Source of the DNA: an uncultured Poribacteria bacterium
Lineage (GTDB): Bacteria; Poribacteria; WGA-4E; PCPOR2b
Length of the DNA: 64,000 bases
Reading direction: 5' to 3'
Assembly: GCA_958296125.1 (NCBI GenBank)
Contig: OY282444.1
Span: 3,629,623 to 3,693,622, forward strand
Shown here: positions 32,073-47,129 of the stretch, piece after piece
How positions within the stretch are numbered: position 1 is the first letter of the stretch
Layout of the letters: each line of letters begins with the position of its first letter
Program-made: the position numbers and the translations under genes
The notes under the pieces: model-generated
What the model was told of the DNA's origin: nothing
The model's input: the letters and a program-made list of their open reading frames with translations, nothing else
Database searches by the model: none

Positions 32073-34719
32073 ATTTCAATCTCATTATTGAGAGTCTTGT
32101 CATTGATAGTGAACCGGCGTGCTTCTTCGGCTGCGACTGCCATGGGTTTCAATCTCATTATTGAGAGTCTTGTCATTGATAGGCTTTGCCCCTGATTGGC
32201 TGCATGGTATTGCCCATAGTTTCAATCTCATTATTGAGAGTCTTGTCATTGATAGGCGGTGCGATCAAGGTCAACCGGCGGCGTAAACATGTTTCAATCT
32301 CATTATTGAGAGTCTTGTCATTGATAGAACCCGAAATTCTCAACGATAGAATCGCGACAAGCTGGTTTCAATCTCATTATTGAGAGTCTTGTCATTGATA
32401 GACAAACGGTACCGAATGCCTTGCCCTTGCCCTTGATACTCTCGTTTCAATCTCACTATTGAGAGTCTTGTCATTGATAGATACGTATCCCCTGTGATAG
32501 GAATCCGCATGGCTACGTTTCAATCTCATTATTGAGAGTCTTGTCATTGATAGGAAAGCAAACCCTCCTCGCACCATCCGCATTGACTATTTGTTTCAAT
32601 CTCACTATTGAGAGTCTTGTCATTGATAGAAAACACCTGGCAAGAGTGCGAATGGGGTTTTGTCAAGTTTCAATCTCACTATTGAGAGTCTTGTCATTGA
32701 TAGGTATCACCAGTGGAGGCATCAGGAGTAGGCTCCTCTACGTTTCAATCTCACTATTGAGAGTCTTGTCATTGATAGAAGGTTGATGAAGTGAAGAGAA
32801 TCGAATCTAAAAAGTTTCAATCTCACTATTGAGAGTCTTGTCATTGATAGGGAGACAACAGATGAATGAGACAGTGTTTTTCGCTATGTTTCAATCTCAC
32901 TATTGAGAGTCTTGTCATTGATAGTCAACGGCTGGTTGGGCGGTCATGTCAGTCGCCAGATGTTTCAATCTCACTATTGAGAGTCTTGTCATTGATAGGA
33001 CCATATACCAGGTCTGACAAACTCATCGCCGGGTGTAGTTTCAATCTCACTATTGAGAGTCTTGTCATTGATAGCGCTTCGCCGTCCAGCGCTTGATCGG
33101 GGAGGGCATGGTTTCAATCTCACTATTGAGAGTCTTGTCATTGATAGATATTACAATCACCCCCGACGATGCGGCGAACACCATGTTTCAATCTCACTAT
33201 TGAGAGTCTTGTCATTGATAGGTTAATCTTGGGGAGGCAGGCTGATGGCGTTTGAAAGTTTCAATCTCACTATTGAGAGTCTTGTCATTGATAGCGGTTC
33301 GGGTAAGTGAAGCTCTAGAAGATATCATAACTGTTTCAATCTCACTATTGAGAGTCTTGTCATTGATAGTACACACTGAGCATAGCGTTGGTTCGCTTCC
33401 CGTATAGAGTTTCAATCTCACTATTGAGAGTCTTGTCATTGATAGGACTCGACACAAGCCGTGACGGTATGGATATCCACTAAAGTTTCAATCTCACTAT
33501 TGAGAGTCTTGTCATTGATAGTTTGAAGATGCGAACGCCGCAACGATCGTGATTAGCCTAACCGTTTCAATCTCACTATTGAGAGTCTTGTCATTGATAG
33601 AGCGGTTCAAGCGGTTCAAGCGGTTCAAGGAACCGAAGTTTCAATCTCACTATTGAGAGTCTTGTCATTGATAGTCCCATACCCGTTATACACCGAGCCC
33701 CCATGCTCCATCAGTTTCAATCTCACTATTGAGAGTCTTGTCATTGATAGCCAGAGCCATACGAAGATCCCGACTTGGAAGTTAATTTGTTTCAATCTCA
33801 CTATTGAGAGTCTTGTCATTGATAGCAAACGAGATGAATTCTTTGCAGTCAAAAAGGAATGTTTCAATCTCACTATTGAGAGTCTTGTCATTGATAGATC
33901 TGACGAGACCAAAATCGATAGTTGCGAAGTGTATTAGGGTTTCAATCTCACTATTGAGAGTCTTGTCATTGATAGTCAAAAGAAAGCAAATACCCGCATG
34001 GTCGACAGTTGATAATGATCGTTTCAATCTCACTATTGAGAGTCTTGTCATTGATAGTTGTTCAAACGGGTTAGGGCTGCTTTGGCTCATGTCAGGTTTC
34101 AATCTCACTATTGAGAGTCTTGTCATTGATAGGACGCAAGGAGGGAAGGAACGCTTAGGCTGTAAAATGTTTCAATCTCACTATTGAGAGTCTTGTCATT
34201 GATAGGATGAATCCGTAAAGTGAACAATACACGACAACGCTGTTTCAATCTCACTATTGAGAGTCTTGTCATTGATAGGGCGACTGTCGGGACGATTGCC
34301 CTTGCGATATGATTGTTTCAATCTCACTATTGAGAGTCTTGTCATTGATAGTCACTACGATCCGTATTACCGCTCCCCAGACCATCAAGGTTTCAATCTC
34401 ACTATTGAGAGTCTTGTCATTGATAGGCTTGCCAAGCCGTCTGGATCGTTTGATTCTCTCTTGTTTCAATCTCACTATTGAGAGCCTTGTCATTGATAGG
34501 GGGGGGTGGACCGTGCCACGCCGCAAAGCGTAAAGGTTTCAATCTCACTATTGAGAGCCTTGTCATTGATAGTTAGATGGCACCGGCACCAACCGGGTCA
34601 GGGGTGGAGTTTCAATCTCACTATTGAGAGCCTTGTCATTGATAGTCGCAATTTTGCGAGCCCAAACTGTATCTGCTATCACGTTTCAATCTCACTATTG
34701 AGAGCCTTGTCATTGATAG
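32073..34719 (-). CRISPR. CRISPR array, 36 repeats of 37 bases and 35 spacers
   Basis: Repeats start every 72-82 bases from 32073 to 34683, with spacers of 35-45 bases. In the transcribed (minus) sense each repeat starts CTATCAATGACAAGACTCTC and ends AGTGAGATTGAAAC: a TCTCA/TGAGA stem with an ATAG loop, then the 8-base handle ATTGAAAC usual for Cas6-cut crRNA. The leader lies at 34720-34939 next to cas2. Variants are ordered: the four leader-proximal repeats carry GGCTCTC instead of GACTCTC; six trailer-end repeats (32073, 32146, 32219, 32291, 32365, 32517) have an ATAA loop; the last repeat (32073) ends ATTGAAAT. One spacer (33601-33637) is a tandem of AGCGGTTCA. Confidence 0.98.
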
Positions 34720-35315: not shown

Positions 35316-36953
35316 TCATCGAACTGTCAGCGGTGTATAGGTCTCAATCTCTCCCATAAGACACTTGGCGAGCAGTCGCACTTGTAATTCAAGCGCGCGG
35401 CGAAAGCTAATTTTGTACTTGAAAACGGGATGTGTAATCGTCTCATTTTTGCGCCTCTCATAGGCAGCGTAAAACTTCTTGCGAGCCGGGTCTTTAAGAA
35501 ACCAACCGCCGTGAGATTGGGTGAAGTCGTTTGGCGTAATTTGCCTATTATTGATGAGCGTTACCACCACCGAATCGGCAATAATCGGGCGAAATTCTTC
35601 CATCAGATCCAGCGCGAGACAGGGGCGTCCGTAAGTCTGTTGGTGGAAGAAGCCGACATAGGGGTCAAGTCCGACGGTTTGGATTGCGGAGATAACATCT
35701 GCGGTCAGTAGGGAGTAGGCAAAACTGAGCAGCGCGTTGGTCGAATCTTTGGGAGGACGTCGAGTGCGATGTTCAAAACTGAACCCCATCTCCGTGTTCA
35801 GTATTGATGAGAAAGATCGAAAATAGTCCGCCGATGCATTTCCCTCAAACCCAAGTAATTCGGAGAGATTTTCCGCTTTAGGGAGGCGTCCTCGCATTTT
35901 CCGCATGCCTTCTATACTTGATTCGATAGTGGCTTCTTCGGCATCTGTTTCGGGCTTACCTCGCCATTTCCGGCGTTGGAGCATCATCCGCATGTTACTA
36001 ATTTTGCCATGTACAAACGTCTTCGCAAGCGCGAGGCACTTCTCCTGGTCATCTGCGACCCGATGTTGAGCGACGCGTAGGAGCGAATTTCGAGAGATTT
36101 GTGGCATCAGTACACCCTGATAGCGTCCGTATGCGGAGAGGTAAACGATGGGAATCCCTTCGTTGAGCAAGGTCTGCATCACTGGGGTTGTCACACTGAT
36201 GTTTCCACAAAGCACAACCTGCCCCAGGTGGATGAGTGGGATGTCACGGATGGTTTCCCCCTCTTTGACCACGAGCAGGCGTGCCCCAGTCTTTTTGAGG
36301 ATGCAGCCCTGTTCGTCGACATACAACACGTTATCAATACCGAGGGCGGGCTTGATCCGTTTGGGCCGGTCGTCCAGTTCGTTGAGGTAAGCGACCTCGT
36401 CCGGCAGGCAGATCCCCCGGACGCTACACCCGTTGCATCGGTTATCGTGGACCGGTTCGGGAATCTTTCTGGTCTGCAACAGCGATTCCGCGTCCGAGAC
36501 AAAGTCACGGCTGATCTGCCGCAGTTCCGCATCAAATACTACCTTGCGGCGGCGTTTAGAACCGATATAGTAGATATAGCCGTGAGGGACCACCGTGCCA
36601 GTGCTCTCTTCGATCAACATCCCTTGTAGACAGAGTTGGACCTGATCGTTGAGCCAGTTGCCCGTGCCGGCTTTCTTATATTCGACAGGGCACGATACCC
36701 CCTTCTTCTCTTCAATCAGATCGAGATAACCGGAGACACCCAGCGTGTCAGAGGCGAGATATTGACGACGAGAGACTTTCACCCCCCGCTCATTACGGTT
36801 TTTCATCTCCGTATCAACGCGGGCATGTTTGATTTTCCCTTCCTCAACATGCTCGTTAATCACTTGGTGCCCCTCAACGGATTCGTAGTAGAATCGGCGT
36901 GGACAGAAAACGTAAGTGTTTATCTGCGAAAGCGGTATGTAAGTTTCGGACAT
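35316..36953 (-). CDS. cas4-cas1: Cas4-Cas1 fusion protein
   Basis: A 545-aa fusion of two adaptation proteins. The Cas4 half (1 to about 195) has C17 in YVFCPRRFYYE, the RecB-type nuclease residues D78 (GYLDLIE) and E91-x-K93 (PVEYKKA), and C173, C176 and C182 to complete the iron-sulfur site. The Cas1 half (about 200-545) has the metal ligands E370 (GFEGNASADYF), H437 (FFHQQTYGRP) and the acidic LDLMEEFRP. Cas4 selects and trims PAM-containing prespacers, and Cas1-Cas2 integrates them. Fusions of this kind are known in several type I systems. Confidence 0.96.
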   Translation of the reverse strand: MSETYIPLSQINTYVFCPRRFYYESVEGHQVINEHVEEGKIKHARVDTEMKNRNERGVKVSRRQYLASDTLGVSGYLDLIEEKKGVSCPVEYKKAGTGNWLNDQVQLCLQGMLIEESTGTVVPHGYIYYIGSKRRRKVVFDAELRQISRDFVSDAESLLQTRKIPEPVHDNRCNGCSVRGICLPDEVAYLNELDDRPKRIKPALGIDNVLYVDEQGCILKKTGARLLVVKEGETIRDIPLIHLGQVVLCGNISVTTPVMQTLLNEGIPIVYLSAYGRYQGVLMPQISRNSLLRVAQHRVADDQEKCLALAKTFVHGKISNMRMMLQRRKWRGKPETDAEEATIESSIEGMRKMRGRLPKAENLSELLGFEGNASADYFRSFSSILNTEMGFSFEHRTRRPPKDSTNALLSFAYSLLTADVISAIQTVGLDPYVGFFHQQTYGRPCLALDLMEEFRPIIADSVVVTLINNRQITPNDFTQSHGGWFLKDPARKKFYAAYERRKNETITHPVFKYKISFRRALELQVRLLAKCLMGEIETYTPLTVR

Positions 36954-37066
36954 GGTTTAATACTCCTCCTTCAATCAAGGGTGGGGCAGGCAGATTGGAT
37001 GGGTCACTCCTAACCTTCCACTCCAATTCTGCTTGTGCAGAGGCAAGCTGAGGCTTGCCATCTTTC

Positions 37067-37906
37067 CTACCTCCTCCTTGTCTGTCCCATCCCCATCGTT
37101 GTTTTGTAGCCGGTGCCGCAATAGAAAGCGAAATCAGCGAGCAGGTTCGCCAAACGTAACATCTCAGTGGATCCCTCACCATCGGATTGACGCTCCACGA
37201 AAAATTGGTATGCACAACTTCCAACAAATCCGATCGCCTTATGTTTGCCGAAATCGAGCATCCGGCTCTTGCTGTCAACCGCCGTTAGCCCGGCGTGATG
37301 TGCCACGAAATCGAGAAGGGGCTGCTTATCAATCTGCATCGGTGCAAAGGCGTTCCATTTGTTAACCCAGCTCTGATAGCAACGCACGAGGTCGATATGC
37401 GACTGATTGCGCGTTTTTTGCCCACGCGGCGACAGCTCCCGAAAGGCAGTCGGCGAATAGAATCGCACCCGCATCCGAGTCTCTGTCCCCGCAGATTCAA
37501 TCAGGTCCTCATAAGTCTTTGTGCCACTCCAATTATTACTTTCTGTCCCAGAGGCAACCATTCGGCTCAGTTGAAAGGTTGCTCCCCCGAGCCGAATGGA
37601 CGGTAGACTCTGCGTCAAGAAGGCGTTGCCGAAGTGGGCGAAAAGTGCATCGTCAAGAAATGTGAAGCGGAGCCAGCATTCTGTGCCAGCGCGGATTCGC
37701 AGGAAATTACCACGCCGTTCCCCGTTGCCAATCAACGGCGAAACGGTGAACGGTTTCTGCGCGGATATGGCGTGAATTTCTTCCGCCTTTTCCGGGTCGC
37801 CAATTCGCAGCAGCGAGAGAAACGCGCCGTGCGCGTGATGCCCCATCGTCGGACGCAAGGTGACATCTTCGGGGGGGATGAGGTGGATGACGGTGCTGAT
37901 AGGCAT
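37067..37906 (-). CDS. cas6: CRISPR repeat-processing endoribonuclease Cas6
   Basis: A 279-aa RAMP protein that would cut the array transcript 8 bases from the repeat 3' end. The C-terminal glycine-rich loop YCGTGYKTTMGMGQTRR is the family hallmark; histidines near the N-terminus (MGHHAHGAF) could be catalytic. AAGGAGG lies just upstream of MPISTVIHL. It lies 11 bases after cas3' and 113 before cas4-cas1. Type I-D and I-B Cas6 proteins have this size. Confidence 0.9.
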   Translation of the reverse strand: MPISTVIHLIPPEDVTLRPTMGHHAHGAFLSLLRIGDPEKAEEIHAISAQKPFTVSPLIGNGERRGNFLRIRAGTECWLRFTFLDDALFAHFGNAFLTQSLPSIRLGGATFQLSRMVASGTESNNWSGTKTYEDLIESAGTETRMRVRFYSPTAFRELSPRGQKTRNQSHIDLVRCYQSWVNKWNAFAPMQIDKQPLLDFVAHHAGLTAVDSKSRMLDFGKHKAIGFVGSCAYQFFVERQSDGEGSTEMLRLANLLADFAFYCGTGYKTTMGMGQTRRR

Positions 37907-37917
37907 GGGGAACCTCC

Positions 37918-39807
37918 TTAATCAAGGTTCAAAAAGGTCAACTGTTCACCGCCTTCTGAAGGAGGTTCAACAGATTTTACTTGTTGTGCCGGTTCTGTGT
38001 CAGTCTCTTCCGATTGATTAGAAATTGTGGTGTCTTCTGGCATGGGTGTCGCCAAGTCTCGCAGATAATGCAACCAGATTTTTCGAGGTTCGCGGTTTTC
38101 ATCGGTTGTATTATAGATAAAATTTTGCCGATACCCACTAATACCCCCGTATTCAAAAACTTTGGGGAGCTCATTATAACCTAACTCTTCAGAAAAGTAA
38201 GATTCAGGCACCTCAACAAAGAGTTCTTTAAAGTAAACATTACCGCCAAAGTTAAGTGGCACAAACTTGAATTCTTCGTGATAGTCATCATAAGAGCGTT
38301 GGTACACCTTAAAATTCGGATTCACAACTTCGTCGTTTTGTGTATTTGCGATACAACTTCGGAGCGACACGCTGACAGCGTTTTTTGGTCGGTGTTCAGG
38401 TGATTCGGGGACCTTAGTTGTGAGAGTAATTGAAGGTTCAAAACTCCGAGTAATAACAAGGCCCCTATCGTGAAGAGGTTTGTTTTCAAGGCGCGCTTCA
38501 TAGACATACTCATATAGCATGTCAAAGAGCACTTCCGCCCTATAGTCAGAGTGCGGCTCGTATCTCATAACTTTGAGGATTTCGTCCGGACTGAACCTGT
38601 CTCCATCCAGCTTTTGCAAGATTTGAAGATATTCCTTCTCCATTTCTTGAGAAATGTTAGAGAGACGTATCTTGTTTCCCACAACAATGATTTCAGCGTC
38701 CGGAATTTTGCCATTGCGGTTGCATCTGCCTGCCCGTTGGATGAGTTGATCGGGGTTGCACAACTCTGTAATAAGCAGATTTGCATCAAGGTCACACCCT
38801 ACCTCAATTGCACTTGTTGTAAAAAGGAGATAACCCTCATTTTTCTTTAACTTACCATAGACCCTTTTGCGTTGCAGATTGGATAGTCGTCCGTGGTAGA
38901 GAAAAATGTTCTCATCGCCGCTCCGCTCTTTCATATACTGGTAAGCCGGAATAAGGTCTTGAATCGTTTCAATGGTGACAATGGTCCGCTTACTTGGATC
39001 GTACCGCTGCGATATGCAGGCACAGATTTCGTCCCGAACCTTTCCCCCTGGCTCCACACTAATGCGCTTAATTGACTTGTTAGGATGCTGCCGCTTCTGC
39101 TTTTGTTCCTGCCAACTTTCTAGTTCTCGTTGATTCTCACCTGTGGTATAATCCACTTTATCTAAGAAATCCAATTCCTCTTGGTACGCGTCAGGCATTG
39201 TCGCAGTCATGACAACTATATCCAGATTGGCTTTGTAGAGTGCCTTAATGAGCCGTTCAAAGTTGACAAACGCAACCCCATCATAGGAATGGACTTCGTC
39301 AAAACAGAAAAGATTCTGCCGTTGACTGTGGTGAATCCGGAACGGGTAGATATAAGATTTTATGGGTTCACCAAATCCAAAAAAGCGATACAGGAACTTG
39401 TCAAACGTTGTGAGGATAACATCGCCATCGTAGAGATGGCGATTTCCTTTTTCCATTTCTTTGCCAGTCTTAAAAACGGTGCGTTCAGACTCGGCTCCTG
39501 TGTCAACAACTAGCGCATAAGATTTTCCCAGCTTTTCTGATGTACGCTGGAGGTACTCTGTGCATCGGCCAATCTGGTCTTCAACAAGACTCCGCGAAGG
39601 AAAGATCAGAAATAGGCGACGAGGGCACTCTGCGGCGAAGCTTGGCACAAGGACTGCCTCTGTTTTTCCACTGCCTGTGGGTGCCTTGAGTAGAATCGCA
39701 GGATTCTTCTCTTTCGGAGCAATGAGAGCAAAAAGTTTATCCTGCATCGGGTTCGGCTCGAATTTTGTGCCTGCAATCTGTTGATACGCCTCTAATACGC
39801 TTTGCAT
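37918..39807 (-). CDS. cas3: Cas3' helicase of type I-D character
   Basis: A 629-aa superfamily 2 helicase without an HD domain. The start MQSVLEAYQQ at 39807 has GGAAGG ten bases upstream; the ATG at 39831 has none. Motifs: Walker A APTGSGKT (42-49), DEVH (170-173), TAT (201-203), and motif VI QRAGRCNR. The DEVHSYDG box and overall length match the helicase-only cas3 of type I-D (cyanobacterial subtype) systems. It overlaps the HD nuclease gene by 16 bases, so nuclease and helicase are translated together as separate proteins. Confidence 0.9.
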   Translation of the reverse strand: MQSVLEAYQQIAGTKFEPNPMQDKLFALIAPKEKNPAILLKAPTGSGKTEAVLVPSFAAECPRRLFLIFPSRSLVEDQIGRCTEYLQRTSEKLGKSYALVVDTGAESERTVFKTGKEMEKGNRHLYDGDVILTTFDKFLYRFFGFGEPIKSYIYPFRIHHSQRQNLFCFDEVHSYDGVAFVNFERLIKALYKANLDIVVMTATMPDAYQEELDFLDKVDYTTGENQRELESWQEQKQKRQHPNKSIKRISVEPGGKVRDEICACISQRYDPSKRTIVTIETIQDLIPAYQYMKERSGDENIFLYHGRLSNLQRKRVYGKLKKNEGYLLFTTSAIEVGCDLDANLLITELCNPDQLIQRAGRCNRNGKIPDAEIIVVGNKIRLSNISQEMEKEYLQILQKLDGDRFSPDEILKVMRYEPHSDYRAEVLFDMLYEYVYEARLENKPLHDRGLVITRSFEPSITLTTKVPESPEHRPKNAVSVSLRSCIANTQNDEVVNPNFKVYQRSYDDYHEEFKFVPLNFGGNVYFKELFVEVPESYFSEELGYNELPKVFEYGGISGYRQNFIYNTTDENREPRKIWLHYLRDLATPMPEDTTISNQSEETDTEPAQQVKSVEPPSEGGEQLTFLNLD

Positions 39808-40592
39808 AAAATCATATCCTTCCGCTGACATTTCGTATAGGTGTGTGCCTTAACAATTAGTTCACGTAGATGGCTCAACCCTTTTTGCGAACTATCTCCT
39901 GTTAGTGCCTGGGCTATCTGACAACGGTCTTCCTTGGGCATATCAAATTGATAATATGTAAGGGATAGAGGAATCCCCTCATTTTCGCCCTCGTTGCCGA
40001 ATGGATAGGGGGTAACTTCAACCCTTCCCTCTTTGGGCATACGCGAGTGAAAATCCATAAAGACACGTGGTTGTACATTGCCTGTGAACGCGTATGTTTC
40101 AATCTCCGCCTCAATCTGATCGCACATTTCTAGGATGTAAAGGTCAAGAAGAAAGCTTTCAATCTTTTCTTTGGAGAACCCTGAATTGGAAAGTTCAAAC
40201 TGGGCTTTAACGATACCTTCGACGGAAAATTCGTGATGCAGCCGGATAAGCAGTTCAACATAGAGATTGGGATCAAAAACCCTAAAACGGTGACCTGCAA
40301 AGGAGTAGCCTAGGGATTTGGGGGTGCTCCCTTTCCAACCCCGATAAGTTAGGCGAAAGGTTTCCGGTTTCGCGTCGTCATGTTTTTGGGCCGCGCGTAC
40401 CAGCAGGTCGCGAGTTTCTTGGGCACCCCATTTAAAGGTTGGATAGAAATCTCGCCGAAACTTTTCCACCAACTTGACAACATTTCCAACGTGGCTCTCC
40501 AGAGTGAGCACAGTAACGGTTTCTATATCCGGCCCACTATCCGGTCTAAAGAAAACCCGACCAACCTTAACTGTATCTATTGTATTAGTCAC
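39792..40592 (-). CDS. cas3'': Stand-alone HD nuclease Cas3''
   Basis: A 266-aa protein starting at GTG 40590-40592, seven bases after AAAGGAG. The open frame runs further upstream through cas5 but the GTG is well supported. It contains a complete HD set: H34, H71-D72, H101, H119/H120 and D158 (LEMCDQIEAEIE). It overlaps the cas5 stop by 8 bases and cas3' by 16. In standard type I-D this domain is the N-terminus of Cas10d; here it is a separate gene next to the helicase, as in type I-A. Confidence 0.85.
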   Translation of the reverse strand: MTNTIDTVKVGRVFFRPDSGPDIETVTVLTLESHVGNVVKLVEKFRRDFYPTFKWGAQETRDLLVRAAQKHDDAKPETFRLTYRGWKGSTPKSLGYSFAGHRFRVFDPNLYVELLIRLHHEFSVEGIVKAQFELSNSGFSKEKIESFLLDLYILEMCDQIEAEIETYAFTGNVQPRVFMDFHSRMPKEGRVEVTPYPFGNEGENEGIPLSLTYYQFDMPKEDRCQIAQALTGDSSQKGLSHLRELIVKAHTYTKCQRKDMILCKAY

Positions 40593-41370
40593 CTTCTGCT
40601 CCTTTCCGCAATTCATCAACGAACGGTCGCGGGAGGTACACTGTCCCATCCGTATAGTAATCGAGTTCAATCTCCCCTTGAACTTCTCCGGCAACAAAGG
40701 GAATGAATCCTTTAATAGAACTGGGTTCAGGGTGTTCAAGGGGTGTATCTGGGGAGGGCTTCCCTTCCCAAGCATAACGATACAGTGAAAACGCTTCGCA
40801 TGGAATCCCGACGAGTTCGGTCCCGGGCAAGAGTGTATCAGGTTCAGCGCGTGTTCGTTCCAAGGCGAGTTGGGTCGGCCCGCAAATCCTATCCACAAAA
40901 GCGTATCCCTCTTTGCCGATTTTACAACCGAAGTTTTTAACCGTTTTCAATTGGCTCAGGAGCTCCTCGTCTTCCGAAACCACGTAACCAATGAGTTTTT
41001 CAACAAAGAGGTATTCCCACGTGTGGAGTTGATAGTTTTCTTCTTGTTTCCTTTTATAGCCAACGATTCGCGAGAAGGTACTGTGGTTGAAAGCCTTCAT
41101 CCCCTGTCGCTTTGTTGTATGGACACAATACCCTCGTGCCTTGGGATATGCCCCAAGTGGACAAAGTTGGGGCGGCAAGGCGTAATAATCCGGATCTTTG
41201 ATAGCGGTTTCCGGGAAATGCCCAGCTCCCAGCAGCTTCAAGCGGCGCAAAAAGCCGGACATCGTTGTCGGCGGTAGAAACGGATAGGTACTGATATGCA
41301 GGATGGACGACGGCATCCGTCGAAATGTCAATCCTGATGTCGGTTTAATTTCCAGTTTCAGCATCCACAT
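40585..41370 (-). CDS. cas5: Cas5 family protein (Csc1-like)
   Basis: A 261-aa RAMP protein that should cap the 5' handle of crRNA in the Cascade complex. The start MWMLKLEIK at 41370 is nine bases after GGAGG. The N-terminal strand is followed by YPFLPPTTMSGFLRRL, the proline-rich segment usual in Cas5 proteins. Assignment to the I-D Csc1 branch rests on its position next to a Csc2-like gene. It overlaps cas7 by 26 bases. Confidence 0.8.
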   Translation of the reverse strand: MWMLKLEIKPTSGLTFRRMPSSILHISTYPFLPPTTMSGFLRRLKLLGAGHFPETAIKDPDYYALPPQLCPLGAYPKARGYCVHTTKRQGMKAFNHSTFSRIVGYKRKQEENYQLHTWEYLFVEKLIGYVVSEDEELLSQLKTVKNFGCKIGKEGYAFVDRICGPTQLALERTRAEPDTLLPGTELVGIPCEAFSLYRYAWEGKPSPDTPLEHPEPSSIKGFIPFVAGEVQGEIELDYYTDGTVYLPRPFVDELRKGAEGD

Positions 41371-42316
41371 TGCTAAGTACCTCCGTTTCAAAACTGACTA
41401 GATACTCCGATATCTTTGCGATAGCGGCATTCCCGACGTATCGGTGGAAGTTCCCTTGGGTCAATTCGCTGTCAGATGGCTGTTCGCTCCCGGCAATTGA
41501 AAAAACAGCCTTCTTGAACTGAGCTTTCGCCAAGTCAACATCTGTAATGGCGGGCGAAACCACAGGCCGCTTGCCAAGTGGGGCGAGATACCGGTCAATG
41601 ACAAGCCACGGTTCATCCTCATCTAGTTTCGTAAGCGGAGCATCATGGATCTTAACCCCTTTGGGATTGCCCGCTCCCAGACGTGCCAATGCCCCCATAA
41701 ACGCGTAAGCAACAGCGGAGAATTCACGGTCCGTCATACTCACACAATGATTGTAAACTGGATAGAGAAGCCCCGGTTGATTATACTCTCGTTTGAAAGG
41801 GGTTGGTGTCGGGTCCGCTTCGGGGGGTTTCCGCATGATTGAAGGATGCATCGCACGCTGCTTCTCCTCGGGGCCCAACGCCTGAATTGCAACTCCGCCG
41901 CTATGCGTCAAGCGGCCAATAAGTGTGGTTGGAGGACGTTTTTCGCCTTCAATCTCAGTTGCACTTGTAATCAGTCCACCAAAGACACGGCAGATTGGAC
42001 ACTCGGCTTTGCTACAAGTGTGTGGAATACCGCAGTTCAGTCCATCACCCAGCAGTCCAGTTCCAGTTGGTGCCCAAATTAGCGAGCGCCGTTCAACACC
42101 ACGCCGCTTGGTCGGGGAGAGATAGCATTTCTCAAGTTCGTTGGCCTCGGTGTCATTAGATACCGGGATAGTAACCATCTCGACGATGTTGACATTCACC
42201 TGCGTCTCATGTCCGAAGAAGAGTTCCTGGCCCCCTTCAAGAATTGCGTAAATGTCAAAGTGGAATCGCGGTTCGTCGGTGTAAGTCTCAAGTCCAGATT
42301 TCACGTTAATTGCCAT
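41345..42316 (-). CDS. cas7: Cas7 family backbone protein, Csc2-like
   Basis: A 323-aa protein expected to coat the crRNA spacer in six or more copies. AAGGAGA precedes MAINVKSGLETYT. The central segment WAPTGTGLLGDGLNCG, followed by a possible zinc site (C95, H99, C101, C106 and C109), and the DREFSAVAYAFMGALARLGAG region agree with Csc2, the Cas7 of type I-D. It lies 17 bases downstream of the large-subunit gene. Confidence 0.85.
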   Translation of the reverse strand: MAINVKSGLETYTDEPRFHFDIYAILEGGQELFFGHETQVNVNIVEMVTIPVSNDTEANELEKCYLSPTKRRGVERRSLIWAPTGTGLLGDGLNCGIPHTCSKAECPICRVFGGLITSATEIEGEKRPPTTLIGRLTHSGGVAIQALGPEEKQRAMHPSIMRKPPEADPTPTPFKREYNQPGLLYPVYNHCVSMTDREFSAVAYAFMGALARLGAGNPKGVKIHDAPLTKLDEDEPWLVIDRYLAPLGKRPVVSPAITDVDLAKAQFKKAVFSIAGSEQPSDSELTQGNFHRYVGNAAIAKISEYLVSFETEVLSNVDAETGN

Positions 42317-42333
42317 TTTGGTTAATCTCCTTT

Positions 42334-42792
42334 CTAGTTGAATAGGGAGGCGAACTTCGTATAAAGGTTAAGTTTGAGCTGATAAAACAACTTTCTCTGT
42401 TCAGCCTTGTTATATCTTTGAGATAACTCGGCGTAAGCGTTGAGAATGTCGTCAAAGTAAATTACTAGATGCTCCTGCCCTTTCTCATTATGTTCTTCAC
42501 GACTGGATAACTCCAATTTAAGCGTTCCTTGCAATAGTCGCTTTGCTTGATCGTAGCAGAAGTAGTTATCATCGTTGCGGAACATCGTTGCGCGCGTACC
42601 GGGGAGTATATCAGAAGCTTCGTAGTTGAAGAAACTAGCGTTCGCAACTTTCTCGATCAGTTTTTTGACTTCGCGTTGTACCGTATCGCGAGTTTTTGAT
42701 TTTTCGAGTTCCCCGCGGACGTAATGACAATAAGCGTAGGTCAATCCGGTAAGCGCGGCGACATCGTAAAAAAATGCTGCTTTTTTGACCAT
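42334..42792 (-). CDS. cas11d: Putative internally translated Cas11-like small subunit
   Basis: Inside the large-subunit gene and in the same frame, AAAAGGAG (42801-42808) is followed after eight bases by ATG (42790-42792). This is a better ribosome site than that of the full gene. The product would be the C-terminal 152 aa (MVKKAAFFYDVAALTGLTYA...), mostly helical, the right size and fold class for Cas11. In type I-D, I-B and I-C systems the small subunit is known to be made from an internal start of the large-subunit gene. Confidence 0.7.
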   Translation of the reverse strand: MVKKAAFFYDVAALTGLTYAYCHYVRGELEKSKTRDTVQREVKKLIEKVANASFFNYEASDILPGTRATMFRNDDNYFCYDQAKRLLQGTLKLELSSREEHNEKGQEHLVIYFDDILNAYAELSQRYNKAEQRKLFYQLKLNLYTKFASLFN

Positions 42793-44541
42793 GAGTTTAT
42801 CTCCTTTTGAGGATTGCTCAAGTAAAGTACAGTGTTTTTCCCGGAGCTCCTCAAGACTCCGTTTTTCACTATATGACCAATCATAGATTGGTGTTGCTTC
42901 AGTGGATTCTGCGGTTGCCAATTTATACATAGCAGAAATCACTTCATCTTTCTGAATGAGCCGAATCGCTTGACATAACTGCATATTATCTTTACGGTTC
43001 ACGATAAGACGAGGTGAAAAACTTTCTTGGAGATGACTAAGCCAAACTAGATATCGACTTGGTAACAAAATCTCCGATTCGCCTGCAAAAAGCGTAAAAT
43101 CCATCTTTTCAAGCGCGCCAACGGGAAGAGTTCTGGCGACTCTCCAGAGTGTATACTGCACCTGCCCGATTTTTTCTGAAACGGGTGTTGAACCCCCGCG
43201 CTCGCGTACAAATTCGCGGCAGTTCATCAGTAAATATCGTCCGGCAATCAGATTCATTTCACCAAGGGTTAGCATCTGGAGATATTTTTCAGGTAATACC
43301 TGTTGGTTCTCCTCGCCAGTTTGTGGTGCCAAACGAACGATAATCGCGCCGCCTGCTAGTTTAATCGGGCAACCGAAAGCAACCGTAAGGCAGTTAGGGC
43401 AAATAGACGCTTTAGGGCGGTCTTGCGCGTTCCCTGATTGCAACCTTTGAGAGGGATCTGAAAAGACAAATCGGTTTGCCGTTAGGTTGCCCTTAAAGTG
43501 GTGGGTCTCGCTTTTGGGTGGTAAATACCTGCCACAACTGTAGCAACGGTTTCTGGCTGTATCACCAGCACCGTGGGTGTGGTTTTGCGCCATTTCGTCA
43601 ACTGAAGCAAGTGGACAGGCCAGAATACTAACAGGTTCATTCAAAATCTCAATAATTTTATCTTCAATTTTTCCTTTTTTTGAGCGAGGTTTCACCGTAC
43701 CGTAAGAAAATTGGCTTGAACCAGTTCGGTTGAATTGATGAGAAAGCCTTACCGCTTTGTCGAAACTGAGCCTATTGGTTCGCAGCTCAGCGCGCAAACC
43801 GGCTAGGAGTTCCCTCAGTTCTTCACTATTCGCTTTGAAGGCAGTCTTGCGCTCCTCGTCGGTTTTGGCTTTCTTATAGTTGTCGGGGTATCGAACAACT
43901 CTTTCCTCAAGTGTTGCAATGTAAAAGGCGGCTTGCCAAAGCTTCATCGCTTCTGTTACCGATGGAAAGTGAACGTAACCAAAACCTCTATTAGTCAACT
44001 TCATGCTATTCACAAATAACGTAAAGGACTTATATAAATCTTCTTCTGAATAAGCAAATTGAATGAACTGTTGCCATTCATTCTCAATCTGAAAATTTGT
44101 CTTTGGTATAAACAGGGTAACTGTCAATCGATTTTCTGAAAGACGGATAGCACATTTTTCCTGCTGTAGGAATCCCATGAACCTTTCAATCAACGTGTCA
44201 TAAGCAAGCCTAATCTGAATCTCTTGCGGAAGTATGGTCCGGTAATAACTATAGGTTTTCCCAATCGGCTTGTCCTTAAAGATGATTATGTCTCCATGCT
44301 GGGACAGCAGGTCAAGCGGGCTCGGCGGGCACTTATCAGTTTCTGATTTATATTTCATTATCTGCTTAGCATACCGTAGGACGCGCAATGCCTCCATTTC
44401 ATCCCACCACTGTTTGAGTTGTTCGGACTTTCCTCTGTGTTGCATCCAGTTTACGAATACCTCAAGGTCCCCTGTGAGTTCATCTTGTTTTGTCGCTGCA
44501 AGGTGAGCAGCGAAAATCTTTTCTCTCTGTTGGGCATTCAT
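42334..44541 (-). CDS. cas10d: Cascade large subunit, Cas10d/Csc3-like but without HD domain
   Basis: A 735-aa protein at the head of the cas operon. It has a pair of CxxC motifs (C333/C336 and C381/C384), as in Cas10 and Cas8 large subunits, a helical C-terminal domain, and no HD or GGDD motif. Gene order and the Csc2/Csc1/helicase partners point to type I-D, where the usual Csc3 is about 900-1000 aa with an N-terminal HD; adding the separate 266-aa HD protein gives about 1000. AAGGAG lies 12-13 bases before the ATG. An internal start at 42792 (see next feature) could add a small subunit. A Cas8 identity cannot be excluded. Confidence 0.75.
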   Translation of the reverse strand: MNAQQREKIFAAHLAATKQDELTGDLEVFVNWMQHRGKSEQLKQWWDEMEALRVLRYAKQIMKYKSETDKCPPSPLDLLSQHGDIIIFKDKPIGKTYSYYRTILPQEIQIRLAYDTLIERFMGFLQQEKCAIRLSENRLTVTLFIPKTNFQIENEWQQFIQFAYSEEDLYKSFTLFVNSMKLTNRGFGYVHFPSVTEAMKLWQAAFYIATLEERVVRYPDNYKKAKTDEERKTAFKANSEELRELLAGLRAELRTNRLSFDKAVRLSHQFNRTGSSQFSYGTVKPRSKKGKIEDKIIEILNEPVSILACPLASVDEMAQNHTHGAGDTARNRCYSCGRYLPPKSETHHFKGNLTANRFVFSDPSQRLQSGNAQDRPKASICPNCLTVAFGCPIKLAGGAIIVRLAPQTGEENQQVLPEKYLQMLTLGEMNLIAGRYLLMNCREFVRERGGSTPVSEKIGQVQYTLWRVARTLPVGALEKMDFTLFAGESEILLPSRYLVWLSHLQESFSPRLIVNRKDNMQLCQAIRLIQKDEVISAMYKLATAESTEATPIYDWSYSEKRSLEELREKHCTLLEQSSKGDKLMVKKAAFFYDVAALTGLTYAYCHYVRGELEKSKTRDTVQREVKKLIEKVANASFFNYEASDILPGTRATMFRNDDNYFCYDQAKRLLQGTLKLELSSREEHNEKGQEHLVIYFDDILNAYAELSQRYNKAEQRKLFYQLKLNLYTKFASLFN

Positions 44542-44594
44542 AACTATTCAAAATTCTCCTTGGGTTGTTGGGCTATTTAGATTGATCGACGGTT

Positions 44595-44622
44595 ATAATA
44601 ACATACGACCACAGTCGCACAA
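44595..44622 (-). promoter_or_regulatory. Candidate promoter of the cas operon
   Basis: On the minus strand TATTAT (44595-44600) would be the -10 box and TTGTGC (44617-44622) a weak -35 box, 16 bases apart, about 55 bases before the large-subunit ATG. The weak -35 box suggests the promoter may need an activator or be subject to control. Confidence 0.4.
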
Positions 44623-44844
44623 ACCTGCGCCTGATCGAAAAAAAATTCAACGCAATCTCATTTTTTTTTAGAAAAATTTAATCTTTCTTGAATTGAATGC
44701 TAATGATATGTAAGACCGAACCCCTCCTTGGCGATAGTTTTTTCAAGAATCGAGTCAACATACAGATAGTCTTTCAACCGCAAATTTATTGATATAAATA
44801 GTATTAAACAAAATAGTAACATAACATTTAATAAAACGCAAATA
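44623..44844. other. AT-rich region between cas promoter and mini-CRISPR terminator
   Basis: Strongly AT-rich, with long A and T runs (for example near 44638-44676). No frame with a ribosome site is visible. It could hold operator sites for the WYL regulator or targets of the mini-CRISPR RNA. One 6-base match (CAACAT at 44756-44761) to the first bases of the mini-CRISPR spacer was noted, too short to mean much. Confidence 0.35.
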
Positions 44845-44882
44845 AAAAATAAAGGCTCCCAGATCCGTTAAGCCTTTATTTC
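44845..44882 (-). terminator. Terminator of the mini-CRISPR RNA
   Basis: On the minus strand AAATAAAGGCT and AGCCTTTATTT form an 11-base-pair stem with a 13-base loop, followed by TTTTTT. The stem is flanked by A and T runs on the two sides, so it may work in both directions. Confidence 0.8.
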
Positions 44883-44996
44883 CAACTAACTCAAAATTGA
44901 GATTCTTCTAGAAAAGTTGCATAAAACATAATACCAACATTTTTCAATCTCGTATTTATTTCAATCCCACTCTTCATCGAGAGTCTTTCCACTATA
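44845..44996 (-). ncRNA. Solitary mini-CRISPR (CreR-like) RNA gene upstream of the cas operon
   Basis: Read on the minus strand: degenerate repeat at 44958-44996 (GACTCTC hairpin and AGTGGGATTGAAAT end), a partial copy at 44941-44950 (GAGATTGAAAA), a spacer-like segment starting ATGTTGGTATTATG, a second degenerate repeat around 44885-44918 (AAGAATCTCAATTTTGAG against AAGACTCTCAATAGTGAG), then the terminator. A consensus promoter directly precedes it. The likely RNA is about 145 bases from near 44987. This layout matches Cas-regulating RNAs (CreR), which guide Cascade to repress cas promoters. Function is inferred. Confidence 0.6.
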
Positions 44997-45022
44997 ATAC
45001 CACAACCCATCCTTTGGGTCAA
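44994..45022 (-). promoter_or_regulatory. Consensus promoter of the mini-CRISPR RNA
   Basis: TTGACC (45017-45022), exactly 17 bases, TATTAT (44994-44999) on the minus strand. The -10 box touches the first degenerate repeat, so transcription would start just before its hairpin. It is clearly stronger than the candidate cas-operon promoter. Confidence 0.75.
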
Positions 45023-45222: not shown

Positions 45223-46191
45223 TTAATTCTTTCGATATACCTCTACCATCTTCTCCGCTGTCTCCGCCACCCATTCTCGCAATTCTTTCGGTTCAATCAC
45301 CTCTGCCTCATCTCCCCACCCCAAAACCCACCAACCGACTTCCTGCCAGCCCGCGACTGTGGCTTCAAAGCGTAGGCTCCCAGCGTTTTCGTGTATCTCC
45401 TGCGTTGAGTGCCAGTGCACCTCTCGGATGAGAGGGGCGATGCGCGGCGCGAACTCAATAACGACGTGTGTCTCCGGGCCAAGCCTGAAAGCCCAACTCT
45501 TCTCCATATATCGCTGCACGGAGAAATCTTCGGGGATCGTATAGGGGGCAGAGCTGATGAAGAGAGAGTCAATGCGGTTGATGCGGAAAGTTAGAATCTT
45601 ATTTAATCTTTCAGTGGATCCAATCACATACCATGCGCGTCTGCGAAACAGGACTGCATACGGTGAAAGCCGATGCTGCTCCCGCCTTCCACTGCTGAAA
45701 GAATTATATGCCATGTTGACCTTGCGCCGTTTCCGAATCGCTTCGTATAGCTTCTCTTTATGCAATTGCGTTTCATCGATTTGGCTGACCTGTTGATGTG
45801 GAACTTCAATCTGTGGAGCAATTTGGCTTAAAGTTTCGTTTGTCTGCTTTGGTAAATTCGAGGTGATTTTATGGATGGCACTATTGAGAACCTCTATTGC
45901 CTGCTCCCCTTCTGCTGCCTGATAAAAACGGGCTGCTGTAATGAGTGCGAGTGCCTCCTCAAAGTTAAGATTGGGGATAGGGAGGAAAAAGTCGGAGGTC
46001 ATTTCGTATCCCTGTTTGCCACATGGATTAATCTGGATTTCCATGCCACGCAACAGATCAATATCACGTTGGATGGTTCCTTTATCGACTCTAAGGTGTG
46101 CTGCCAACCGAGGGCGGGTCCACCGACGCGGTTCGTTGTGAATAAGGGACGCGATTTTGATGATTCGCGCCATCTGATATGTTCGGTACAT
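45223..46191 (-). CDS. WYL-domain transcriptional regulator
   Basis: A 322-aa regulator. The ATG at 46189-46191 (MYRTYQMARIIKIASLIHNE) follows AAAGGAT; the frame upstream to 46377 is rejected because it would overlap the neighbouring gene and has no ribosome site. An N-terminal winged helix (RPRLAAHLRVDKGTIQRDID) precedes a WYL domain (RREQHRLSPYAVLFRRRAWYVIG) and a C-terminal WCX-like part. WYL proteins near CRISPR loci regulate cas genes by sensing ligands such as nucleic acids. It lies 200 bases upstream of the mini-CRISPR promoter on the same strand. Confidence 0.9.
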   Translation of the reverse strand: MYRTYQMARIIKIASLIHNEPRRWTRPRLAAHLRVDKGTIQRDIDLLRGMEIQINPCGKQGYEMTSDFFLPIPNLNFEEALALITAARFYQAAEGEQAIEVLNSAIHKITSNLPKQTNETLSQIAPQIEVPHQQVSQIDETQLHKEKLYEAIRKRRKVNMAYNSFSSGRREQHRLSPYAVLFRRRAWYVIGSTERLNKILTFRINRIDSLFISSAPYTIPEDFSVQRYMEKSWAFRLGPETHVVIEFAPRIAPLIREVHWHSTQEIHENAGSLRFEATVAGWQEVGWWVLGWGDEAEVIEPKELREWVAETAEKMVEVYRKN

Positions 46192-46265
46192 GGTATCCTT
46201 TTGGTGCCTTTTGGGCAGGGTGCCCCTACCAAATAACTCATCCTTCCTTTCCATACGCATTGGTG

Positions 46266-47129
46266 TTATTTGTTGCTTTCTTGGGTCGCCTTCTTCGCTT
46301 GACTTGCAAGCCGCCCAGCTTGTTTTGCCAATCGCTTGGCTTCCTCGATCCGTTTCATCAAGGCGCGGTTCGTCCACGCAACGCCAGCCAAATACCGAAT
46401 CTCCTTGCCGTTGGTCGCTGATGCGTTCAACGCCTCTGCAGCAAGATAAACCTGCAAACCACTATCTGCAATATGGCGGAGTCCTGTATTAACACCCCTA
46501 CCATCAACCTCAACGCTGAAAGTCAGACTGCCCCGTGCAAAGGCGGGGTGAAAATCTTTACTGATACCCAAGAACGCGCCGTTCAATACTTGGCTGATAC
46601 CAATATCTTCGACAAAACGGCGATTCCCGATACCGATATGGCCCGTAATATGATGAATACGTGGTAGGGTGAACTGCTTGCTAACCGCAAGGAACGCGGA
46701 CTTGCGTTCGTATCGCTCCATATCTTTCAGTTCGCTCTCAACACTGTCGCCGATATTTTCCAGTCCGACTGCGACGTTGGGAACAACCCCAGTCTCGCGG
46801 AGCAGAAGCACTTTGAGATTTCCCAATAAAAAACTCCGTTGATTGTGTCGAACATTTGTCAAACCAATCTCGACACGATCGAAAAGCCCAAAATCGAGTT
46901 GGAGTGCAACTTCGTCGCGGGGCAATTCGCTGGCGTTACGAAAGCCAAAGTAAGTTCCAAGGTTAAATACCCCATGTTCGATAACCTTGCCCGTCGGTAT
47001 GTCTACCAATCCACTAGCCCGGTAATAGGGAGCAGCCCACAGACGAGGTGAACAAAGTATGGTAACGCAAAACAGAGAAATGATTAGCCGTTGCAGCCCA
47101 ATCGGAAAAGCATTATAAATGAAATTCAT
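46266..47129 (-). CDS. Exported outer-membrane beta-barrel-like protein
   Basis: A 287-aa protein with a signal peptide (LIISLFCVTILCSPRLWA) followed by alternating beta strands (YYRASGLVDIPTGKVIEHG, DFGLFDRVEIGLTNV, ARGSLTFSVEVDGRG). The pattern resembles YjbH/Gram-negative barrel proteins. The C-terminus is a lysine/alanine-rich helix (RLAKQAGRLASQAKKA). Role unknown. It lies 74 bases upstream of the WYL gene and could be co-transcribed with it. Confidence 0.6.
   Translation of the reverse strand: MNFIYNAFPIGLQRLIISLFCVTILCSPRLWAAPYYRASGLVDIPTGKVIEHGVFNLGTYFGFRNASELPRDEVALQLDFGLFDRVEIGLTNVRHNQRSFLLGNLKVLLLRETGVVPNVAVGLENIGDSVESELKDMERYERKSAFLAVSKQFTLPRIHHITGHIGIGNRRFVEDIGISQVLNGAFLGISKDFHPAFARGSLTFSVEVDGRGVNTGLRHIADSGLQVYLAAEALNASATNGKEIRYLAGVAWTNRALMKRIEEAKRLAKQAGRLASQAKKATQESNK

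Follow-up and report, generated by a model that had tools for sequence, protein, structure and literature searches.

The window analysed here is a stretch of 64,000 nucleotides (nt) on contig OY282444.1 of a Candidatus Poribacterium genome (G000, 5.16 Mb), and the element in question is a mini-CRISPR unit (CRISPR, clustered regularly interspaced short palindromic repeats) situated between a regulator gene and a cas operon. All window features given below lie on the minus strand. Upstream the unit (44844-45022) adjoins the gene for a WYL-domain regulator (45223-46377). On the other side come a proximal cas promoter (44594-44630) and the genes cas8b, coding for the type I-B large subunit (42334-44541), cas7b (41345-42316), cas5b (40585-41391), the cas3 helicase (37918-39831), cas6 (37067-37906; best PADLOC model Cas6d) and a cas4-cas1 fusion (35316-36953), and the main CRISPR array of 36 repeats (32073-34719) is found across the operon from the unit. 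The initial annotation, made from the letters of the window, placed the unit just upstream of cas10d in a type I-D operon, but the profiles give Cas8b (E-value 5e-119), Cas7b and Cas5b, which makes the operon type I-B.

The window was compared with G001 and G003, relatives in the genus, and with G004. The operons of G001 and G003 are of type I-D, with Cas10d in both and Csc2 and Csc1 in addition in G001, and they are preceded by the same regulator, unit and cas promoter as in the window. Within one genus and at a conserved locus (window 35316-45022 compared to L006 and L050) the effector has thus been swapped between I-B and I-D. G004 has the I-B operon of the window (83% identity) and the cas promoter; it is without the unit and the promoter which, as described below, the unit targets, and locally without cas1-cas2 and an array. 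An array repeat of the window kind was not found elsewhere in the G004 genome (88% complete). The cas promoter contains an element, GGTTTGTGCGACTG, which is common to G001, G003, G004, G053 and G043.

A consensus promoter, degenerate repeats, a partial repeat, a spacer and a strong terminator had been described for the unit; all of these are present, but on the minus strand. From 45022 the order is promoter, first degenerate repeat, duplicated handle, spacer, second degenerate repeat and terminator. The promoter, TTGACC-17-TATTAT with an extended -10 (44994-45022), has 10 of 12 matches and is conserved in G001 and G003. The first degenerate repeat, psiR1 (44958-44996), aligns to the array repeat with a local score of 35, which none of 2000 shuffles reached. 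It is followed by a duplicated repeat end, the handle ACGAGATTGAAAA (ACGAG-ATTGAAAA; 44941-44953), and the same duplication is found in G001, G037 and G058. The pseudo-spacer ATGTTGGTATTATGTTTTATGCAA... (44911-44940), whose first 17 nt are identical in G001, starts at the base right after this second handle and matches a target at 44822. The earlier handle was also tried as the start of the guide, giving the spacer AAATACGAG..., and was rejected as it yields no target flanked by a protospacer-adjacent motif (PAM). The second degenerate repeat, psiR2 (44878-44910), is nearer to the repeat of G001, CTATCAATTAGAAGAATCTCAAGTATGAGATTGAAAC (score 34, 0 of 2000 shuffles), than to that of the array in the window (score 26, 2 of 2000). 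An intrinsic terminator with a hairpin and a U-run ends the unit (44844-44884; -14.4 kcal/mol, z -4.5). The comparison with related genomes suggested in the initial annotation bears the unit out: G001 conserves it entirely (77% identity, 191/199 bases) and G003 conserves the spacer-repeat part (79% over 67 bases). A search of Rfam with the window stretch and nine relatives gave no match.

Positions 6 and 12 of the spacer stay unpaired in type I effectors, and we scored spacer matches over positions 1-17 leaving out these two. The annotation reported matches of only 5-6 bases in the cas upstream region and proposed to align the spacer to 44542-44840 with a GTN filter, GTN being the PAM of type I-D systems (PMC10212523). 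This alignment finds a convincing target, GTT-ATGTTACTATTTTGTTT at 44825-44806, with the PAM GTT (44823-44825) directly before a protospacer (44806-44822) which is paired at positions 1-5, 8-11 and 13-17, that is at 14 of the 15 scored positions. The target overlaps the -10 box of a promoter, TTGCGT-17-TACTAT with an extended -10 TGT (44813-44841), which lies just 3' of the terminator of the unit, between unit and cas promoter. Its equivalents are TTGCGC-17-TAGTAT in G001 and TTGCAA-17-TATTGT in G003. In all three unit-bearing members of the genus the best match of the spacer is at this same place with the PAM GTT (14/15, 14/15 and 12/15); the next best match in the same search scores 10, and with a GTN PAM required 0, 0 and 7 of 4000 shuffled spacers were as good. 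The pattern of paired bases has one exact match in the 5.16-Mb genome, at 44822-44806.

Relatives of cas8b and cas10d were collected in the phylum and the upstream DNA was scanned for a handle followed by a seed match within a few hundred bases; further units were found beside genes for DUF3800 proteins. This gave 14 units, three inside the genus and 11 outside, in hosts with I-B or I-D systems (the window genome G000, G001, G003, G023, G030, G036, G037, G043, G055, G058, G071, G075, G080 and G081). Positions 1-5 of the spacer pair in 14/14 units and positions 7-11 in 13, 14, 14, 13 and 13, values which are partly selected as the scans scored the seed. Position 6 pairs in 5/14; it was never scored, and the low value shows only a lack of constraint. 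Position 12 pairs in 7 units, positions 13-17 in 9, 10, 8, 7 and 6, and positions 18-24 in 2-5. The PAM is GTT at 12 of the 14 sites, where one scan required GT and the scan beside DUF3800 genes accepted full seed matches with any PAM; the exceptions are GCT in G080 and GTC in G081, where the gene behind the target is broken. Ten units retain the stem pairing of psiR1, two of whose pairs have changes in both partners. The letters of the spacer vary at positions 3, 4, 5, 7, 8 and 9 and the target agrees every time except at position 7 in the window; spacer and target therefore covary. Control DNA of 337 kilobases had three seed matches that were not within a CRISPR array, and GTN preceded none of them. 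The rule published for CreA is pairing at 1-5 and 7-11 with 6 and 12 free (PMC8501985), and the set of 14 has this seed match, the PAM and the free position 6, with 9 of 10 seed positions in the window. As far as the sequences tell, the pattern is the signature of CreA and Cascade with covariation, which strongly supports the proposal in the annotation that a CRISPR RNA (crRNA)-like RNA guides Cascade to a nearby promoter. In G080 (L133, target at 670) the PAM is GCT instead of GTT and the spacer pairs at 17/17 positions; it looks as though a complete match needs a weak PAM in order to be tolerated.

Such a pattern is hard to combine with a functionless leftover from the end of an old CRISPR array, which we dismiss: the repeats do derive from the array, but the unit is distant from the array leader, has its own promoter and terminator, and its self-target covaries in 14 genomes and is absent from the control DNA.

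Of the 14 units, 12 have a protein gene under the targeted promoter: a DUF3800 gene in ten and a gene for a helical protein of about 79 amino acids in two. The DUF3800 protein has about 200 amino acids (Pfam E-values from 9e-8 to 4e-9 in the three tested). Its AlphaFold model (predicted local distance difference test 88, predicted template modelling score 0.86) resembles structures of RNase HII with a best E-value of 9e-7, and PADLOC gives weak matches to DUF3800_VII and PDC-M04A, which are candidate defence effectors. DUF3800 has been described as an accessory protein with an RNase H fold at some class 2 loci (PMC10910872, PMC12669027). Two of the ten DUF3800 genes are broken, in G058 by an amber codon and in G081 by stops. 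Copies linked to cas genes without a unit (G046, G031 and G008) are fragments only; an intact gene is thus found in 9/12 cases with a unit and in 0/3 without (p 0.044, a small sample). The two small proteins, of G003 and G043, share 54% identity and are predicted to form one long helix and a short one; in G003 an insertion sequence element is found at the end of the gene. No plasmid homologues were found for either DUF3800 or the small protein. Both kinds of genes are putatively toxin-like. Since the repressed promoter normally drives one or the other of them across Poribacteria, the ancestral role of the unit was probably that of a toxin-like guard repressed by CRISPR, similar to CrePA.

The window and G001, its nearest relative with a unit, have no protein gene behind the targeted promoter. 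Aligned with G003 and G043, both are seen to retain the promoter and its 3' flank. The distance from target to cas promoter is about 200 nt, and the stretch 44640-44806, a candidate for a regulated RNA or a mini-ORF (open reading frame), is short and unstructured. Within it lies a block of 32 nt (44745-44776) that is conserved in just two of 85 genomes, G000 and G001. The mini-ORFs that follow the target (MLTRFLKKLSPRRGS..., MKDYLYVDS...) were rejected, as they match no Pfam family and show no convincing coding conservation. The current output of the targeted promoter in the window may well be a toxic RNA or ORF of very small size, at slightly less than even odds. As a separate observation, a GC-rich hairpin, GCAGGGCCTACA-CCACCGCCAAGGATGGGTTCGGTCCTGC, whose opposite strand carries a T-run, is found in G001 and G003 ahead of the cas promoter (L002 1340-1382; L050 5710-5660), and half of this element is left in the window near 44720.

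We find it likely that the unit is a repressor of the CreA type, with a crRNA-like guide RNA that silences a neighbouring promoter rather than attacking a virus. The unit would be transcribed from its own promoter and Cas6 would cut the transcript at the degenerate repeats to give a crRNA-like RNA beginning with ATTGAAAA-ATGTTGGTATT (spacer start ATGTTGG). In a type I effector this RNA would pair by its seed (1-5 and 7-11) with the GTT-flanked site on the promoter at 44841-44813, and as pairing peters out beyond roughly 17 nt, the promoter would be repressed rather than cut. That there is a target, and that selection has kept it, can be read from the compared genomes, and repression itself is what we infer from them. 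The unit probably helps to guard or to tune the immune system.

Some observations weigh against this reading. In the window sequence, the Cas6 hairpin preceding the second handle is not the fold of lowest energy. Protospacers gave no PAM for the I-B system of the window, and 8 array spacers matched only the array itself when searched in 85 genomes; one array spacer sought in viral contigs was not found there. In 44640-44806 neither a stable RNA structure nor a credible ORF was found. Finally, the seed pairs at 9/10 positions in the window, position 7 being mismatched, which is partly offset by the pairing at 13-17. In the haloarchaeal CreA that has been tested every seed position is needed (PMC8501985), and repression by the window unit may therefore be weaker.

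The mismatch and the absent partner gene could also mean that the unit is a decaying relic, and G004 has lost both unit and target. We regard this as improbable, as the promoter, the handle and the strong terminator are intact and 17 nt of the spacer are identical to those of G001.

A stronger competitor is that the protein gene was lost and the targeted promoter became a distal cas promoter, so that the unit tunes cas expression by read-through. From the target to cas8b there is neither a protein gene nor a convincing terminator, and both unit and target are retained in two species that lack the protein gene and differ in effector (I-B and I-D). The cas operon has, however, a proximal promoter of its own, the conserved block of 32 nt intervenes, and transcripts reaching cas8b have to be assumed. 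On balance we hold this to be possible but somewhat unlikely. Direct repression of the proximal cas promoter (around 44604), the autorepression which the initial annotation had in mind, fares much worse. A match of ATGTT at 44604-44600 beside the cas -10 is conserved in G001 and G004, but the site has 9 of 15 scored positions and the PAM CGT, against 14 of 15 and GTT at the targeted promoter, which in 12 relatives is the promoter of another gene; this version is very improbable.

Two further observations were made at cas loci of the phylum. In G053 (L040 1749-1786) an array repeat is found about 600 nt past the end of the array, and after it come two copies of another repeat sequence, AAGAAACTCGATTACGAGATTGAAAC. 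Many cas operons of Poribacteria have in their leader an element of about 100 nt, CAGAAAACCACC...GGTGGGCAACC...GGCATACGCAACAGTTTTCGGC...TTTACTTCTG, which is often in tandem (L041 11360-11130 on the minus strand; L111, L114, L116, L118 and L120-L129). Rfam gave no match to it at the loci searched; a riboswitch or a repeat element is possible.

A tentative wider model, somewhat less likely than not, is that Poribacteria have, throughout the phylum, a family of guard modules repressed by CRISPR with exchangeable I-B and I-D effectors and exchangeable protein genes, and that the lineage of the window lost the gene and may have turned a guard of the CrePA type into a cas regulator of the CreR type. 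The units would bring an uncultured phylum and type I-D operons into the range of CRISPR-repressed guard modules, and they name two candidate protein families as repressed genes, one with a fold like RNase HII. The fourteen natural pairs of spacer and target are an evolutionary readout of the Cascade seed, and since one genus has the unit with I-B or I-D effectors, it can be tested how a toxin guard evolves into a self-regulator.

In the open-access literature we found no example of CreA from type I-D systems or Poribacteria, and no link of DUF3800 or the 79-amino-acid protein to CreA. Published creA genes have two divergent repeats, no leader and seed complementarity (PMC8501985); the window unit, with two degenerate repeats around a short spacer and no leader, has this anatomy. 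CreTA, known from type I-B in haloarchaea and type I-F in Acinetobacter (PMC8501985, PMC9458426, PMC10097628), is similar in having two divergent degenerate repeats without a leader and a spacer whose seed matches a nearby PAM-flanked promoter. CreT is, however, a small RNA toxin; in the present case no mini-ORF of the tRNA-sequestering kind is apparent, a protein gene is present in most relatives, and the systems are I-B and I-D. The suggestion of a CreTA-like guard in the annotation agrees with the layout in 12 relatives, where a separate promoter drives a toxin-like gene; in the window, which has no such gene, the promoter is followed by the short unstructured stretch 44640-44806, a candidate for a toxic RNA. 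CreR (I-B, I-E and V-A; PMC12737573, PMC13131331) is also a mini-CRISPR that stands beside a cas operon and is partly complementary to a promoter lying upstream of cas. Here the target is not in the proximal cas promoter, and the targeted promoter could be a distal one. The layout of 12 of the 14 units suggests CrePA (PMC12737573), in which CreA guides repression of a protein gene beside the cas genes. CreP has a KilA-N domain and acts on cell division (PMC12737573); the Poribacteria genes, in contrast, code for DUF3800 (RNase H-like) or helical proteins of about 79 amino acids, both putative toxins, and the window retains the unit and its targeted promoter without such a gene.
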